Source: Bryobacteraceae bacterium (GTDB lineage: Bacteria; Acidobacteriota; Terriglobia; Bryobacterales; Bryobacteraceae). From it: a stretch of DNA of 64,000 nucleotides. The stretch is from the NCBI GenBank assembly GCA_026129905.1, contig JAHCHE010000035.1, positions 1 to 64,000 of the forward strand, read 5' to 3'. The position numbers and the translations under genes were made by a program. Each line of letters starts with the position of its first letter. Position 1 is the stretch's first letter. Shown piece after piece: positions 57,464-64,000 of this stretch. The notes below the pieces were generated by a model. The model made no database searches. It was not told the DNA's origin and was given only the letters and a program-made list of their open reading frames with translations.

Positions 57464-59845
57464 ATGCGCGTTCACCGTCCTGGGACTCTCCCTGCTCATC
57501 AGCCGCTACAGCTCTGTCTTTCGTTGGTTGTGACGCTGATTCTGAGCTCCACGCTAAGCGCGCAGATTATGGAGGGCGAACTGCGCATCACGGTTCGCGA
57601 CCAGGGCGGGCGGGCTGTGGCGGCGCGCGCTGAACTCAGTGCTCGAAACCCGCATTTCCGCGCGGCAGCTCAGGCCGACTCGGCCGGGAATGTCCGGCTG
57701 CTGCGGCTACCGCAGGGGATCTACCGCCTGACGGTCACGCATCACGGGTTTGAACCGTTTGGCGACACAATCGAGATTCGCTCCGCAGTGCCCCAGGAAA
57801 GAGAGGTCATCCTCAAGGTGGGCGCCGTCGCGACGGAGATCACGGTGCAGGCGATTGCCCCGCTGCTGGACCGCGCCCAGCCGGGGCTGGTGATGCAAGG
57901 CGGACGCGAGCAACTTGAGGAGACTCTCGGGACGACGCTCGGCCGCGGCGCGATCGACGTCGTCACGACCATGCCAGGCTGGCTCGTTGAAGCCAACGCC
58001 GTGCTGCACCCCCGCGGATCGGAGTACGACACCCAGTATGTTATCGACGGCATGCCGCTCTACGACAACCGGTCCATCGCATTTGCGCCGGCCTTCGAGA
58101 ACAACGAGTTCGAGGCGGTCAACATTATGACCGCGGGCATCCCGCCGGAATACGGCCGGCGCCTCGGCGGCGTGATTGCGCTCGACACCCGGCGGATCAG
58201 CCGGCCGGGGCACGCCTCCGAAGCGGATTTTCAGGCGGGCAGCTTTGGAACGTACTTCGGCTCGCTGGCTCACCAATATCGTGCGGATCGCACGGCCGTG
58301 TCTTTGGGCGTTCATGCCGGCTACACAGACCGCTACCTGGATCCGCCGTCGTTGGAGAATTTCACCAACAAGGCAAGCGCCGGCGGCTTCAACGCCCGGC
58401 TGGAGTACGACCTCAGCAGTCGCGACCGGCTCACAGTTTATCTGCGCTCCAACCGCACAGGTTTTCTCGTTCCCAACGATCTGGCGCAACAGGCAGCGGG
58501 CCAGCGCCAGGATCGCGCCTCAGCCGAGACGGCCGGACAGGCTCATTACCAACACACCTTCTCCGCCCGCGCCCTGGGCTCGGTTCGCGGCATGGTGCGG
58601 GATCTGACGGCAAGGCTTTGGAGCAACACTCTGTCGACGCCGGTCTACGCGGACCAGGACCGGGGCTTTCGGGAAGGCGCCCTCATCGGCAGTTTTACCA
58701 TCGACAGCGAACGCCACACCCTGAAGTTCGGTGGCGACCTGCGGATCAACAACGTCAGGGAGAGCTTTCGTTTCGCCGAGCCGGATGAACTCCCTAACTT
58801 CGACCTTAACTTTACCGAACATCACCGAAGCACGGAGGCAGCCGCTTTCATCCAGGATCACTTCAGGCTCGGAAATTTCGCAGCCACGGCAGGGTTCAGG
58901 GTCGACCGCTACAGCTTTCTGGTCAAGGATACGGCCTTCAGTCCCCGCGTCGCGCTGAGCTACTACGTGCCCCCTGCCGACCTGATGTTGCGAGCCTCCT
59001 ACGACCGCGTCTTTCAGCCGCCGCCGATGGAAAACCTCCTGCTCAGCAGCGCGGCCAGCGGTCTCGACCTGGATGACGTCAAAGGCGCTCTGGCCGTGCC
59101 GCCCAGCCGCGCGAACTTCTACGAGATTGGGCTCCGCAAGCCGATCGGCAACCGGCTGCGCCTGGACGTTAGCCATTATTGGCGAACATTCCGCAATTAC
59201 ATCGACGATGACGTGTTCTTCAATACCGGCCTCTCCTTTCCCATCACATTCGACACGGCGCGGATTCAGGGAACGGAAGTCAGGCTGGAGATGCCGCGCT
59301 GGCGAGGATTCTCCTCGTTCGTCAGCTATTCCAATATGCTCGGGAAGGCCTCGTCACCCGTGACGGGAGGGCTTTTTATTGAAGGTGGAGAGGCCGAAGA
59401 GCTGCGCGAAGGCGTCGAGCGATTCCCCATCAGCCAGGACCAGCGCAATACGCTGGCTGCTCAGGTTCGGCTCGAACCCCACCGGCGGCTCTGGTTCATG
59501 ACGGGCATCCGCTATGGCAGCGGCCTCCCGGTTGAACTCGACGACGACGATGATGACGACGATGACGATGGAGAGCAGGAAGACGACCACGAGCGCGCAA
59601 CGCCAATCCCCCACGCCATCCTCGACAGGGTGAATTTCGAGCGCGGCCGTATCCGGCCCAATTTCAGCCTGGATCTGAGCCTGGGGCTGCGATTATGGCA
59701 GCGCGATGCGCGCTCCGTGACGACGCAGTTCGACGTGCGGAATGCCACGGACCGCCTGAACGTCATCAACTTCAGCGGCTTGTTCTCCGGGACGGCCCTG
59801 GCGCCGGGGCGCCAAATCACGGTTCAGATCAAAACCCGGTTCTGA
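57464..59845 (+). CDS. TonB-dependent receptor with carboxypeptidase-regulatory-like N-terminus (793 aa)
   Basis: 793 residues. Signal peptide (LQLCLSLVVTLILSSTLSAQ), then a CarboxypepD_reg-like domain at about 35-120 (MEGELRITVRDQGGRAVAAR; LPQGIYRLTVTHHGFEPFGD), plug around 150-260 (QYVIDGMPLYDNRSIAFAPA; EAVNIMTAGIPPEYGRRLGG), and a barrel to the C-terminus VQIKTRF. A run of ten Asp residues interrupts the barrel about residue 693-702 in an extracellular-loop position, encoded by repeated GAC/GAT. It imports or senses a large nutrient across the outer membrane. No substrate hints are available. Confidence 0.88.
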   Translation: MRVHRPGTLPAHQPLQLCLSLVVTLILSSTLSAQIMEGELRITVRDQGGRAVAARAELSARNPHFRAAAQADSAGNVRLLRLPQGIYRLTVTHHGFEPFGDTIEIRSAVPQEREVILKVGAVATEITVQAIAPLLDRAQPGLVMQGGREQLEETLGTTLGRGAIDVVTTMPGWLVEANAVLHPRGSEYDTQYVIDGMPLYDNRSIAFAPAFENNEFEAVNIMTAGIPPEYGRRLGGVIALDTRRISRPGHASEADFQAGSFGTYFGSLAHQYRADRTAVSLGVHAGYTDRYLDPPSLENFTNKASAGGFNARLEYDLSSRDRLTVYLRSNRTGFLVPNDLAQQAAGQRQDRASAETAGQAHYQHTFSARALGSVRGMVRDLTARLWSNTLSTPVYADQDRGFREGALIGSFTIDSERHTLKFGGDLRINNVRESFRFAEPDELPNFDLNFTEHHRSTEAAAFIQDHFRLGNFAATAGFRVDRYSFLVKDTAFSPRVALSYYVPPADLMLRASYDRVFQPPPMENLLLSSAASGLDLDDVKGALAVPPSRANFYEIGLRKPIGNRLRLDVSHYWRTFRNYIDDDVFFNTGLSFPITFDTARIQGTEVRLEMPRWRGFSSFVSYSNMLGKASSPVTGGLFIEGGEAEELREGVERFPISQDQRNTLAAQVRLEPHRRLWFMTGIRYGSGLPVELDDDDDDDDDDGEQEDDHERATPIPHAILDRVNFERGRIRPNFSLDLSLGLRLWQRDARSVTTQFDVRNATDRLNVINFSGLFSGTALAPGRQITVQIKTRF

Positions 59846-59936: not shown

Positions 59937-60533
59937 CTACTCTCTGACGTATCCGTGCCGGGCCATGCGCTTGCCGCCTTCGCGGTGGGCTTCGTCGGAA
60001 AGAGCGTGCACGCCGGAGGCGTCGATCCAACGGTTATAGAAGTTGAAAAGGGCGCAGACGGTGATGGCGAAGTAGATCGCCTCGTCGTTCCAGCCGGCCG
60101 CGTGGAGCGGTTGCATGTCGGCGGGGGCGATGCGCGGCGAATCGGCGTTGACTTTGTCGACGAATCGGAAGAGAGTCTTCTCCTTCTCCTCGAGTGGGGA
60201 GCTTTCGAGATCGTGGAGCACGCTCCGCACCAGTTCCTCGCTCCCGAGCAGTTCCGCCGCGACCGCGGCGTGCGCCTTCAGTCAAAAAGGACACTGATTG
60301 CGCGAGGAAGTGTACGCCGCGATCAGCTCGCGCAGGCCCGGAGAGATTGGCGCGGGCCCCCGCATGATCTCCTGGGTGAATCTCGCGAGGTGTTCGGTAG
60401 CCTGCGGGCGGTAGGCGAACAGGTGCCAGATCTGGGGGTACTCGAGTCCCGTCTCCTGCATCATGCGCAGGTTGTCGTGGTAAGGACCCGGCTGGGGGTT
60501 GCTTTCCACCTCCGGCAGAAACATGGGTTCCAT
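59937..60533 (-). CDS. Probable selenoprotein: AhpD/carboxymuconolactone decarboxylase-like, CxxU (198 aa)
   Basis: From ATG 60533 (GGAGAGG upstream) to TAG/TAA at 59937 is one 199-codon frame with a single in-frame TGA at codon 84 (60282-60284). The first part (MEPMFLPEVESNPQPGPYHD; LRELIAAYTSSRNQ) and the part after it (LKAHAAVAAELLGSEELVRS; AIYFAITVCALFNFYNRWID) belong to the same peroxidase-related carboxymuconolactone decarboxylase family. At the TGA the sequence reads C81-P-F-U84-L-K-A-H88, where relatives have the catalytic CxxCxxxH. A SECIS-like hairpin follows. Hence TGA most likely encodes selenocysteine. AhpD-like selenoproteins are known. Role: peroxide or disulfide reduction. Confidence 0.85.
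60255..60284 (-). other. In-frame TGA (Sec codon) and bacterial SECIS-like hairpin
   Basis: TGA 60284-60282, then an 11-nt spacer, then CGCCGC (60270-60265), apical loop GGTC (60264-60261) and GCGGCG (60260-60255), a perfect 6-bp stem. In bacterial SECIS elements a stem-loop about 16-37 nt after UGA carries GGU in its apical loop; the loop here begins 18 nt after UGA. Confidence 0.8.
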
Positions 60534-60627
60534 AAATTTGCCTCTCCGCGGCTCGCCCAGGCCAAGAATGAGGCCCGTGGGCGCAGAATAGCATCGGGCG
60601 CCGGGGCCGGACAATACTCACAATGGA

Positions 60628-63351
60628 CTAGCCGCTTTGTCCTAGTGACAAGACGAGTTCCTCGCCAGGCGAGACGATCACCTCCTCGGAGAAAAGAAAT
60701 GACGTCATCGCCCCGGCGGACCGGACCTGGTGCTCGACCGCCCGGCGGCCGATCCGGGCCGAAGGAGCGGCGGCGCTGCCCGCGACGTCCGCACGGCGCA
60801 GCGGGAGGGCGCCTTCCACCACGGCGAGGGAGACGCGCAGACGGCTGTTCGCGAGGACCTGACGGAAGGTCCCCCAGCCGAGGGCGCAGGACCAGAACGA
60901 TTGGAAGGCCGAAGCGTTGAGGCGAGGCGCGATGACAACGCTCTTTTCGCCGCCGTGGTAGCGGAAACCGCCGAGGGCCGGAATCGCCGACCAGGCGGCC
61001 ATAGCGCGGGCATAGTGGCGGCCGCATTCGGCCTCGTCCCACGGATTGCGCCGCTCGCCGTCGTAGCGGCGGCGGATGTTTTCGACGCACTCCACGCCCT
61101 GCCGGACCATGCCCGCGAACATCATGTGGACGGCAGCCTGGTATTCGAAGCCCGTCATCACTTCGGCGTAATAGGGGAATGGAATTTGCGGGCGTTTTCC
61201 TTCGCCGTAGTCGCAGATTACGAGGCCCGCTTCATCATTTAGCGCGAAGATCCGCTGAACCGAGTCGTGTTCGTACAACTGGCGCTTGTAGTTGTACCGG
61301 TAAATCGATTCGAGCGTCCGGCGGACGTTCTCCGGCTTCACCAGCGGTCCCAATCCGGCGATTTCGGCCAGGTACTGCCCCACCGCCTGGTCCACGAGGC
61401 ATCCCTCGCCCAACTGGAACTCCGGCGTATCGGGCCGGTCCGAGCCCATGTCGCCGACGGTAGCCGGCGCGATCCGGTCCTTGGGTATGCTGCGTATCTT
61501 CTGGACGTAGTATTCGCCGTTGAAGAGGTTATCGTCGATCCAGCGGCTGCCCTGCTCGAAGAGGCTGCGGTAGTCGCCGGCCGATTCGGCGTCGCCGATC
61601 GCCTTCGCCATTTCCTCGGCCGCGCGCAAGGCGGCAAGGTAGTAGATGCCGCACTGCGGATTGGGCCCGTAGAACTCGACATCGTAGGTGTTGTGCTGGA
61701 CCCCTTCGAGCACGCCGTCGCGGTCCGCGTCCCAGCCGCCTTGAATCCAGGCGAACTCGACGCCGCGCTTGATGTCCGGCCACCACGCGCGGAGCCATTC
61801 AAGATCGCCCGACAGGGTCCAGTCGAGGTACGCTTTCACGATCTGGCCCATCTGGCCGTCCGCGGCGGCGTAGCCGTACCGCTGGCGGCCATCGGGGAGA
61901 AGTTGGCGGTGGCGCATGCCGCCCTGCTCGTCCTGCGAGAAGCCAAAGGCCGCCTTCCGCAGCGAGCGGGCGAGCGTGGGGAACAGGTGCTGCGTGGCGG
62001 TCTCGTAGTTCCACACGTGGGTGCAGTTGCCGAAGCAGCAGCCGCGCTGGTCGTCGCAACCTTCGAAACCGTGGAATTCGCCGTCGGCGGTGCGAAAGCA
62101 GGTTTGGGTGACGAGGGTGGAAAGGTTGGAAACCGCCGCGTCCTTCACGGCAGCCGGGAGCGTGCTCTCGCGCATGGCCGTAACAAACCGGCGCGTGCGG
62201 GCCTCGAGCTCCGGAAGCTTGCCCGCGGCGTACTCGGCGGCGGCCCAGGCATCGGCGAAGCGTACCGAGTAGTGGTTACCCAGGTTGGCGTTCTCCTCTC
62301 CCTTGGGCGCGGCCCAGCCGGACCAGGCCGGGGTGCGATTCGGGAAATGCCAGCTCAGCAGGAAGCTGTAAGCGGCATCGGCGCCGGCTGCAATGCGGCG
62401 CTTCAGACAGAGCGATCCGACCGGTTTCCGGAGGGCGGCGGGGGGACCAAGCTCGCCGTCGGCGGTGAAATCGTCCCAGAACAGCATGGGGCTGGCCCAC
62501 CATTTCGCGCTGGGCCAGCCGGTGAGGTGGCTGACCTGGCCGTCGCCGGCGTCGAACAGACAGAGGGCGAACGAGCCGTATAGCGGGTCGGCTTCCGGCA
62601 GGCCCGGGTTGCGCATCATCAGCCCTTCGAGCCCGGCCGGCGCCCGCCGGTATTCGTTGACGCGCGGGTCTGTAGCCGCGCGGGTAACGGACTGTGAACC
62701 AGCGCCCACGGGATTGGCAATGGAGAAAGCGATGGAGACCGTCGCGGGTTCCTTACCGGGATTCCGCACGCGGTAACGCAGGATGGCAACGGGCAAGCCC
62801 GAATCTTCGGCGTCAAGGGGGATGAAGGGGCTGAAGGCGTCGAGCATTACCCGGACGGGGAGTTTCGCATCGCGGAACGCCACGCGCGCGCCGGGAAATT
62901 CGCCGGTAAAGGTCGCGCCCTCCAGGCGGGAGAGCCCGGGGGCGTTGTCCGGACCGAGCCCTCGCGCGGCTTCGTAGGGAGGCATCCACTGGGCCTCCAG
63001 AACTCGAGCGACAGGCCGGCGGTTGCCGGCTTGAACCCAGATGGAGGGGAAGGCGTATTCGGGCGACCGGCCTTTATCGGGACGGTTGAAGATCTCCCAG
63101 TCGCGCAGTTGTCCGCGGCCGCCGAGGCTGATGCATCCTGTGCCGATGCCGCCAAGCGGGAAGGCGATCAGGGCCAGGTTCCGCCCGGCATAAGTCCGGG
63201 GGTAACTCGTGGCGGGACGGGTCGCCTTCGGGGGAGACGGCGGGGGAGGCGCTTCGACAGGAACGGGCATGGTCCGCTCCTGGGCGCCGACTCCGGTAAG
63301 CGCGACGGTTTTGAGGAACCCGCGCCGGTCCGCTTTGGTTTGTTCGCCCAT
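60628..63351 (-). CDS. GH116-type glycosidase (non-lysosomal glucosylceramidase family), Tat-type signal
   Basis: 907 residues from ATG 63351. N-terminus KADRRGFLKTVALTGVGAQ is twin-arginine-like, followed by a Pro-rich linker and the DUF608/GH116 body: IAFPLGGIGTGCISLGGRGQ, LRDWEIFNRPDKGRSPEYAF (N-terminal beta domain), then TCFRTADGEFHGFEGCDDQR, GCCFGNCTHVWNYETATQHL, DGQMGQIVKAYLDWTLSGDL, EFYGPNPQCGIYYLAALRAA and YNYKRQLYEHDSVQRIF in the (alpha/alpha)6 domain. Acts on beta-glucosides or related glycoconjugates outside the cytoplasm. A GH20 gene lies directly upstream. Confidence 0.9.
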   Translation of the reverse strand: MGEQTKADRRGFLKTVALTGVGAQERTMPVPVEAPPPPSPPKATRPATSYPRTYAGRNLALIAFPLGGIGTGCISLGGRGQLRDWEIFNRPDKGRSPEYAFPSIWVQAGNRRPVARVLEAQWMPPYEAARGLGPDNAPGLSRLEGATFTGEFPGARVAFRDAKLPVRVMLDAFSPFIPLDAEDSGLPVAILRYRVRNPGKEPATVSIAFSIANPVGAGSQSVTRAATDPRVNEYRRAPAGLEGLMMRNPGLPEADPLYGSFALCLFDAGDGQVSHLTGWPSAKWWASPMLFWDDFTADGELGPPAALRKPVGSLCLKRRIAAGADAAYSFLLSWHFPNRTPAWSGWAAPKGEENANLGNHYSVRFADAWAAAEYAAGKLPELEARTRRFVTAMRESTLPAAVKDAAVSNLSTLVTQTCFRTADGEFHGFEGCDDQRGCCFGNCTHVWNYETATQHLFPTLARSLRKAAFGFSQDEQGGMRHRQLLPDGRQRYGYAAADGQMGQIVKAYLDWTLSGDLEWLRAWWPDIKRGVEFAWIQGGWDADRDGVLEGVQHNTYDVEFYGPNPQCGIYYLAALRAAEEMAKAIGDAESAGDYRSLFEQGSRWIDDNLFNGEYYVQKIRSIPKDRIAPATVGDMGSDRPDTPEFQLGEGCLVDQAVGQYLAEIAGLGPLVKPENVRRTLESIYRYNYKRQLYEHDSVQRIFALNDEAGLVICDYGEGKRPQIPFPYYAEVMTGFEYQAAVHMMFAGMVRQGVECVENIRRRYDGERRNPWDEAECGRHYARAMAAWSAIPALGGFRYHGGEKSVVIAPRLNASAFQSFWSCALGWGTFRQVLANSRLRVSLAVVEGALPLRRADVAGSAAAPSARIGRRAVEHQVRSAGAMTSFLFSEEVIVSPGEELVLSLGQSG

Positions 63352-63367
63352 AGCGTAGGTCCCGGCG

Positions 63368-64000
63368 TTAACGCAGTTCGCGGAACAACTCGCGGAAGCA
63401 GGCCGCCGCTTCGACCGCGGAGGCTTCGGCGCCGGGCTCGCGGAAGTACGCCTTGGCGAAACTTCCGAGGTCGGTCCAGGTGGTTTGAAGCATGCCTTGC
63501 ATGCGGGCCGCCACCGCCGGTGAGCCATGTTCGCGCGCGAGGCGCACAAGGTCGAGTTGGCGCAGCGCGACGCCCGCTTGTCTCCAGGGCGAGGAGACGA
63601 CGGGGAAGCCGCGGAGCGCGAAATAGGAGGCGGTGGGGTGGGCGGACCCATAGTGCCAGTCGCAGATGACGATGTCCTTCGGCACGAGGTCGATGGCGGG
63701 GTGGGTGGCGTTGAGGGACGCTTCCCATTTGCCGAGGCCAGTGGCGTCACCGTCCAGGAGGCGGTCCCCCCACATCCACATGGCGCGGTTGGAGGCGGCC
63801 AGGTGATCGCGCAGCTTGCGCACTTCGCCGGCGAAAAGTTCCGCCTTATTCCTGCCGCGGCAGCGTGGGCAATCGTCCTCGCCGAGGAGGAAGACTTCGT
63901 CCATCCCGACATGGAAGGCGTCGGCCTGGAAGAGGTCGGCAAGCTCGTCGATCAGTTCAAAGAGCACTTCGTGCACCTTAGGATGGAGGGGGCAGTAACT
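63368..64000 (-). CDS. GH20-like beta-N-acetylhexosaminidase, C-terminal part (partial)
   Basis: 210 codons to the right window edge; the N-terminal part is missing. LCHPKVHEVLFELIDELADL-like start, then FQADAFHVGMDEVFLLGEDD with the GH20 catalytic Asp-Glu pair (HxGxDE), CPRCRGRNKAELFAGEVRKL, then WMWGDRLLDGDATGLGKWEA, and KDIVICDWHYG before a Trp-rich end. These are typical of a GH20 TIM barrel C-terminal half, including strands behind the active site. Downstream, 16 bp later, the GH116 gene starts; together they suggest a polysaccharide or glycoconjugate degradation unit. Confidence 0.8.
   Translation of the reverse strand, partial: SYCPLHPKVHEVLFELIDELADLFQADAFHVGMDEVFLLGEDDCPRCRGRNKAELFAGEVRKLRDHLAASNRAMWMWGDRLLDGDATGLGKWEASLNATHPAIDLVPKDIVICDWHYGSAHPTASYFALRGFPVVSSPWRQAGVALRQLDLVRLAREHGSPAVAARMQGMLQTTWTDLGSFAKAYFREPGAEASAVEAAACFRELFRELR

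Follow-up and report, generated by a model that had tools for sequence, protein, structure and literature searches.

An in-frame UGA almost certainly decoded as selenocysteine in an AhpD-like protein of a soil acidobacterium

Reading through a single in-frame TGA joins two short open frames of a Bryobacteraceae bacterium into one AhpD-like protein, which raises the question whether this TGA is an error, a stop or a codon for selenocysteine (Sec), and what kind of enzyme a Sec-containing product would be. The gene lies in a stretch of 64,000 nucleotides of contig JAHCHE010000035.1, the whole of which is referred to here as the window; its host is a soil acidobacterium.

The interrupted frame and its orthologues

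With the TGA read through, the frame runs on the minus strand from an ATG at 60533 to a TAG at 59937-59939 and encodes MEPMFLPEVE...SSRNQCPF-U-LKAHAAVAAELLG...HGYVRE*, with exactly one in-frame TGA. Under the standard code the same frame is cut into one piece of 110 aa (60614-60282) and another of 97 aa (60230-59937). No promoter and no terminator was detected in scans of the surrounding DNA. The features of the locus are as follows.

59937..60533, minus strand: coding sequence of the predicted AhpD-like selenoprotein, 198 aa plus TAG (TGA-readthrough translation; TIGR01926, CMD PF02627)
60541..60547, minus strand: Shine-Dalgarno-like GGAGAGG upstream of the ATG, read directly from the sequence
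60327..60329, minus strand: codon 69, invariant Glu, proposed proton relay (alignment; present in every motif listed across TGA and Cys homologues)
60291..60293, minus strand: codon 81, TGT, partner Cys of the CxxU pair, Cys in 77/77 Sec-type genes
60282..60284, minus strand: in-frame TGA, codon 84, proposed Sec codon of C81-P-F-U84, TGA in 77/81 orthologues and TGC/TGT in the other 4
60270..60272, minus strand: codon 88, invariant His of CxxUxxxH (alignment), with the spacing of His137 in M. tuberculosis AhpD
60255..60270, minus strand: SECIS stem-loop CGCCGC-GGUC-GCGGCG, arms 60270-60265 and 60260-60255, loop 60264-60261 (conservation, compensatory changes, bSECIS model)

A first-pass annotation of this DNA had given the coordinates and the codon number 84 correctly; the strand, which it did not state, is minus. 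Its description of one continuous frame with a single TGA agreed with the minus-strand translation. The motif around the TGA is E69-x11-C81-P-F-U84-x3-H88, and alignment with homologues confirmed that the TGA replaces the second Cys of CxxCxxxH, as had been proposed. Both flanks were said to belong to one fold, and indeed the CMD domain (PF02627, residues 43-122) and the TIGR01926 match (residues 26-172) both span the TGA.

The orthologue scan, carried out with one genome per species, yielded 80 loci, mostly from Bryobacterales and other Acidobacteriota, and 81 with the window. Codon 84 was TGA in 77 of these close orthologues, the window included, and TGC or TGT in four. Of 200 genomes sampled from the window's order, 90 had a TGA-bearing orthologue without any other stop. 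The alignment showed conservation of the protein continuing through and beyond the TGA, with H88 and other fixed residues in the downstream half; Cys81 was found in all 77 Sec-type genes, and E69 and H88 in every TGA or Cys homologue listed. Position 84 was occupied by Cys or Sec in the homologues, in keeping with the first-pass expectation, and none of the homologues examined truly ended at the TGA, the case which that annotation had named against its own reading.

Corallococcus terminator and two Gemmatimonadota genomes carried Sec-type genes as well. Two contigs labelled Chthoniobacterales and Cyanobacteria (L047, L050) carried typical acidobacterial copies, probably as a result of mis-binning or transfer. 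A maximum-likelihood tree built from 104 sequences required 7 changes between Sec and Cys forms, and several Cys groups were nested inside Sec-type branches. This fits a repeated exchange of Sec and Cys in a clade in which Sec is widespread; since the root was not fixed, the tree does not give the direction of the changes.

More distant members of the superfamily were seen as well. CxxC paralogues with 30-36% identity (L053:4456-4953, L077:2638-3141 and L083:2573-3652) precede the selenoprotein gene, or the Cys form of it, at a short distance, and the first of these scored above the TIGR01926 cut-off. A further paralogue of this group (L127, G167:C37:19021-19518; 39% identity) has a TGA of its own in an E...CFFU...H motif. 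Distant relatives with about 30% identity and a TGA occur in G017 (L128) and other g69 genomes; the L128 motif is ECHYUVDAH, the window-type hairpin is missing there, and this is apparently a separate Sec-type AhpD-like group. In the window's own genome, a second CMD-like match was distant (25% identity) and had no stop.

Fold, catalytic residues and gene neighbourhood

The window protein scored 93.8 bits with the TIGR01926 model ('peroxidase-related enzyme'), above the curated cut-off of 81.8. AlphaFold, run with the orthologue alignment, gave an all-helical model with a pLDDT of 96.1, in which the active-site motif consists of helix 65-78, a turn and helix 82-96. The nearest PDB structures were the peroxidase-related AhpD-like proteins 3c1l, 2pfx, 6k40 and 2prr, with TM about 0.73-0.79. 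Compared with these and with 2oyo, the fold is common over the chain at 21-26% identity and CxxCxxxH is in register, but all five have Cys where the window protein would have Sec. Sestrin2 and the debrominase Bmp8 were more distant structural neighbours; a search of the available literature for Bmp8 gave no direct match.

The proton-relay residues Glu, Cys, Sec and His (E69, C81, U84 and H88) are all present in the two-helix motif. Their spacing equals that of Glu118, Cys130, Cys133 and His137 in M. tuberculosis AhpD (Glu-12-Cys-3-Cys-4-His; PMC3141380), although the whole-chain fold match with that protein was weak and its His132 corresponds to Phe83 in the window protein. The fifth relay residue, His132 or Tyr50 elsewhere, is thus missing, position 83 being Phe in 77/77 Sec-type genes; this residue is not absolutely conserved in AhpD (PMC3141380).

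We consider it highly probable that the product is an AhpD-like TIGR01926 protein of 198 residues with Sec for the second catalytic Cys, likely acting in peroxide or disulfide reduction. C81 and U84, placed at a helix start, would together make up a selenenylsulfide pair of the CxxU type, with E69 and H88 as activating residues. The U84 selenolate would attack the substrate, after which C81 would resolve the intermediate by forming a Se-S bond; proton transfer would fall to E69 and H88, and a thiol reductant would recycle the Se-S form. The substrate would most likely be either an organic hydroperoxide or a disulfide partner. The division of labour, with U84 as the presumed attacking and C81 as the presumed resolving residue, is uncertain, because in human Sestrin2 the first Cys, which is kept, is catalytic and the second is not (PMC4674687). 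Two relatives (L094:3588-4181 and L095:1738-2331) have TxxC in place of CxxU or CxxC. Since they have lost the first Cys and retain the second only, they hint that position 84, rather than 81, may be the essential one. The Pfam sestrin model PA26 also matches the TxxC homologue in L095.

The window gene is flanked by a gene for a TonB-type receptor (57464-59845, opposite strand) and by a GH116 glycosidase gene (60628-63942, same strand). The receptor-like gene contains a run of ten Asp (DDDDDDDDDDGEQEDDH; plus strand, 59540-59590) in its C-terminal part. An open frame on the minus strand at 63368-64000, cut by the end of the window (ADAFHVGMDEVFLLGEDDCPRC), is by eye reminiscent of GH20 hexosaminidase-type proteins.

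Among relatives, the gene directly upstream on the same strand encodes a TonB-dependent receptor with a carboxypeptidase-regulatory-like domain at 20 of 77 loci, the next gene downstream on that strand encodes an MFS carrier at 32 of 75, and both are found at 13 of 72 (L017, L019, L025, L032, L035, L047, L048, L049, L059, L061, L081, L085 and L086). The carrier is nearest to the lactate and oxalate/formate MFS families, with scores below their cut-offs. This recurring arrangement suggests that in cluster-bearing species the role of the selenoprotein may be tied to a transported compound. Taken further, the protein could be a genuine selenoprotein for the selenol-based reduction of one compound handled by receptor and carrier, for example by reductive dehalogenation or carboxylate detoxification, and the kinship of the carrier and the fold shared with debrominase Bmp8 would agree with this. 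The family would then be a clade-specific acidobacterial selenoenzyme of an uptake/export cluster, whose selenol transforms one imported compound rather than scavenging peroxides in general, and the window copy would have left the cluster. We regard both forms of this proposal as unlikely: at the window's locus the MFS carrier and the cluster arrangement are absent, neither gene standing there in that order, Bmp8 was only a distant match (E 0.0016), and the proton-relay residues look peroxidase-like. A search of the available literature for a TonB/AhpD/MFS cluster gave no direct match. Peroxide or disulfide reduction is kept as the preferred role.

The SECIS hairpin and the decoding of UGA

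Starting 11 nt after the TGA is a hairpin with a perfect 6-bp stem and a GGUC loop; 17 nt separate the TGA from the loop. The bSECIS model (PMC13188914) has an apical loop of 3-9 nt, an upper stem of 4-16 bp, a G as first or second base of the loop (mostly N1-G[G/U]-...-N2, with N1 and N2 pairable), 16-37 nt between UGA and apical loop and a free energy of -7.5 kcal/mol or lower. The window hairpin agrees with this model in loop size, stem length, loop bases, spacing and energy. The fold energy was -17.8 kcal/mol for a 51-nt stretch which includes a second small hairpin. Folding of the single sequence, which the first-pass annotation had put forward as a check, was uninformative, with a z of 0.15 and no statistical support in such G+C-rich DNA.

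Comparison among relatives was informative. All six stem pairs were present in 76 of the 82 genes with TGA, whereas none of the 22 Cys-type homologues and paralogues had the full set; for the 24-nt core, -7.5 kcal/mol was reached by 96% of Sec-type but 23% of Cys-type homologues. Synonymous sites are frozen within the hairpin (Ala89 is GCC and Ala92 is GCG, each in 74 of 77 genes), whereas the equally invariant Ala72 and Ala73, and also Ala191, use all four codons. Where Ala89 is GCT, Ala92 is GCA, an exchange of C-G for U-A by which the stem is retained. The loops among the 77 were GGUC (42), AGUU (30), AGGU (4) and GGGU (1), with loop-end pairs N1-N2 of G-C (42), A-U (34) and G-U (1); in a subset of 30 sequences the pair was AU in 15 and GC in 15, with zero breaks. 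In the hairpin alignment 98.1% of cells were paired, and covariation was higher than in any of the 500 shuffles or any slid control. Since synonymous choice and compensatory changes keep the stem, and the Cys homologues are without it, we conclude that the hairpin is real. The spacing, conservation and covariation bear out the earlier view of a SECIS-like hairpin with the expected distance and loop. When the genome was searched with a covariance model of this SECIS, no other credible site came up (the next best had an E of 0.24 and was without the TGA part), so the model does not serve for finding selenoproteins in general.

The window's genome encodes SelA (481.8 bits), SelB (348.3 bits, over the cut-off) and SelD (374.4 bits) together with a tRNA-Sec of 78.7 bits with anticodon UCA, so that all the genes which the first-pass annotation wished to see are present. 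The SelD gene (L105; G000:C10:105744-106667, minus strand) has an in-frame TGA of its own in KAAGUASKLSPKVL, and the genome therefore has at least two selenoprotein genes. Across the 200 genomes of the order, SelA over the cut-off was missing in 7 of 90 genomes with the TGA gene as against 29 of 110 others (Fisher P = 0.0005). We take the seven to be probable assembly gaps; for one of them, G087, a 98%-complete assembly, either an assembly gap or a loss of Sec decoding would account for the absence of a SelA match over the cut-off. A relative with the Cys form, G028, had no SelA.

A TGA shared by 77 of 81 orthologues, with the hairpin kept and the decoding genes present, is not due to chance. 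The UGA is almost certainly decoded as Sec and not as a stop, in line with the first-pass proposal, an assignment that draws on the sel genes, the Cys/Sec homologues and the covarying hairpin. UGA 84 would be read by tRNA-Sec(UCA), brought by SelB bound to the hairpin, while SelA and SelD would provide the charged tRNA and selenophosphate. The sequence and its comparison with relatives establish the TGA, the covariation of the hairpin, the decoding genes, the fold class and the pattern of catalytic residues, and they point to actual Sec insertion in this bacterium.

Readings without Sec fared poorly. Near-cognate suppression, or reassignment of UGA to Trp, Cys or Gly, would explain the open frame itself, and nothing further was found in its favour. 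It is very improbable given the full Sec machinery including a UCA tRNA-Sec, the Cys found as the alternative residue in homologues, and the fit to the SECIS model. Moreover, UGA still serves as a normal stop codon in this genome, since the adjacent gene 57464-59845 terminates in TGA. Still less credit is due to a real stop, with a decaying pseudogene or an 83-residue fragment and a separate or unexpressed downstream half. Standard gene callers would indeed give two fragments, but the downstream half is conserved in dozens of genomes with the invariant H88 and other fixed residues, nearly all the genes have one TGA in an otherwise open frame, and the frozen synonymous sites and compensatory changes lie downstream of the TGA. 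A code change and a pseudogene were accordingly rejected on the Sec machinery, the UGA stop of the neighbour and the conserved downstream half. The least probable reading, a sequencing or assembly error for TGC or TGT in an ordinary Cys-type TIGR01926 enzyme, could appeal to the few relatives with TGC or TGT at codon 84, but 77 of 81 orthologues, drawn from independent assemblies, share the TGA, one of them from strain KBS 96 (L057), assembled as one 6.7-Mb scaffold, and the hairpin accompanies TGA and not TGC/TGT. Both error and true stop are thus excluded by dozens of independent genomes in which this TGA recurs and the downstream half is conserved.

Comparison with known selenoproteins

What is new here is a largely acidobacterial, almost entirely Sec-type clade with a covarying SECIS and, in some relatives, a neighbouring cluster. 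Searches of the available literature for AhpD-like CxxU selenoproteins from Acidobacteria or Solibacter gave no direct match; PMC1794560 gives three selenoprotein families (four proteins) for Acidobacteria. This AhpD-like family, originally described from ocean metagenomes, is common in the window's order (90 of 200 sampled genomes), where standard gene calling would split such genes. The natural SECIS variants, with their clean covarying loop-end pair, form a usable set for tests with SelB, and the TonB/selenoprotein/MFS cluster of relatives offers a concrete lead to the physiological role of an AhpD-like selenoprotein.

Two models of the same superfamily with Sec members do not include the window protein: it scored 35.3 bits with NF041238 (AhpD-related (seleno)protein CFYUT; cut-off 175) and 26.4 bits with NF053654 (YciW-related (seleno)protein; cut-off 310). 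The first AhpD-like CxxU selenoproteins came from marine metagenomes of the Sargasso Sea, where they were labelled COG2128 (PMC1088965), and the GOS survey distinguished two groups, AhpD-like 1 and 2 (PMC2398784); the statement in the first-pass annotation that such proteins are known from metagenomes was therefore right. Compared by description, the Sargasso proteins share CxxU with the window protein but are marine and COG2128, whereas the present clade is, by record titles, mostly from soil and peat Acidobacteriota. CxxU, COG2128 and the Pfam CMD domain are common to GOS AhpD-like 1/2 and the window protein. The closest counterpart is a row of a 2026 catalogue, which lists 'AhpD-like protein, TIGR01926, CxxU' as a prokaryotic selenoprotein (PMC13188914); the window protein shares both its NCBIfam family and its CxxU motif, and the gene therefore belongs to an already described family.
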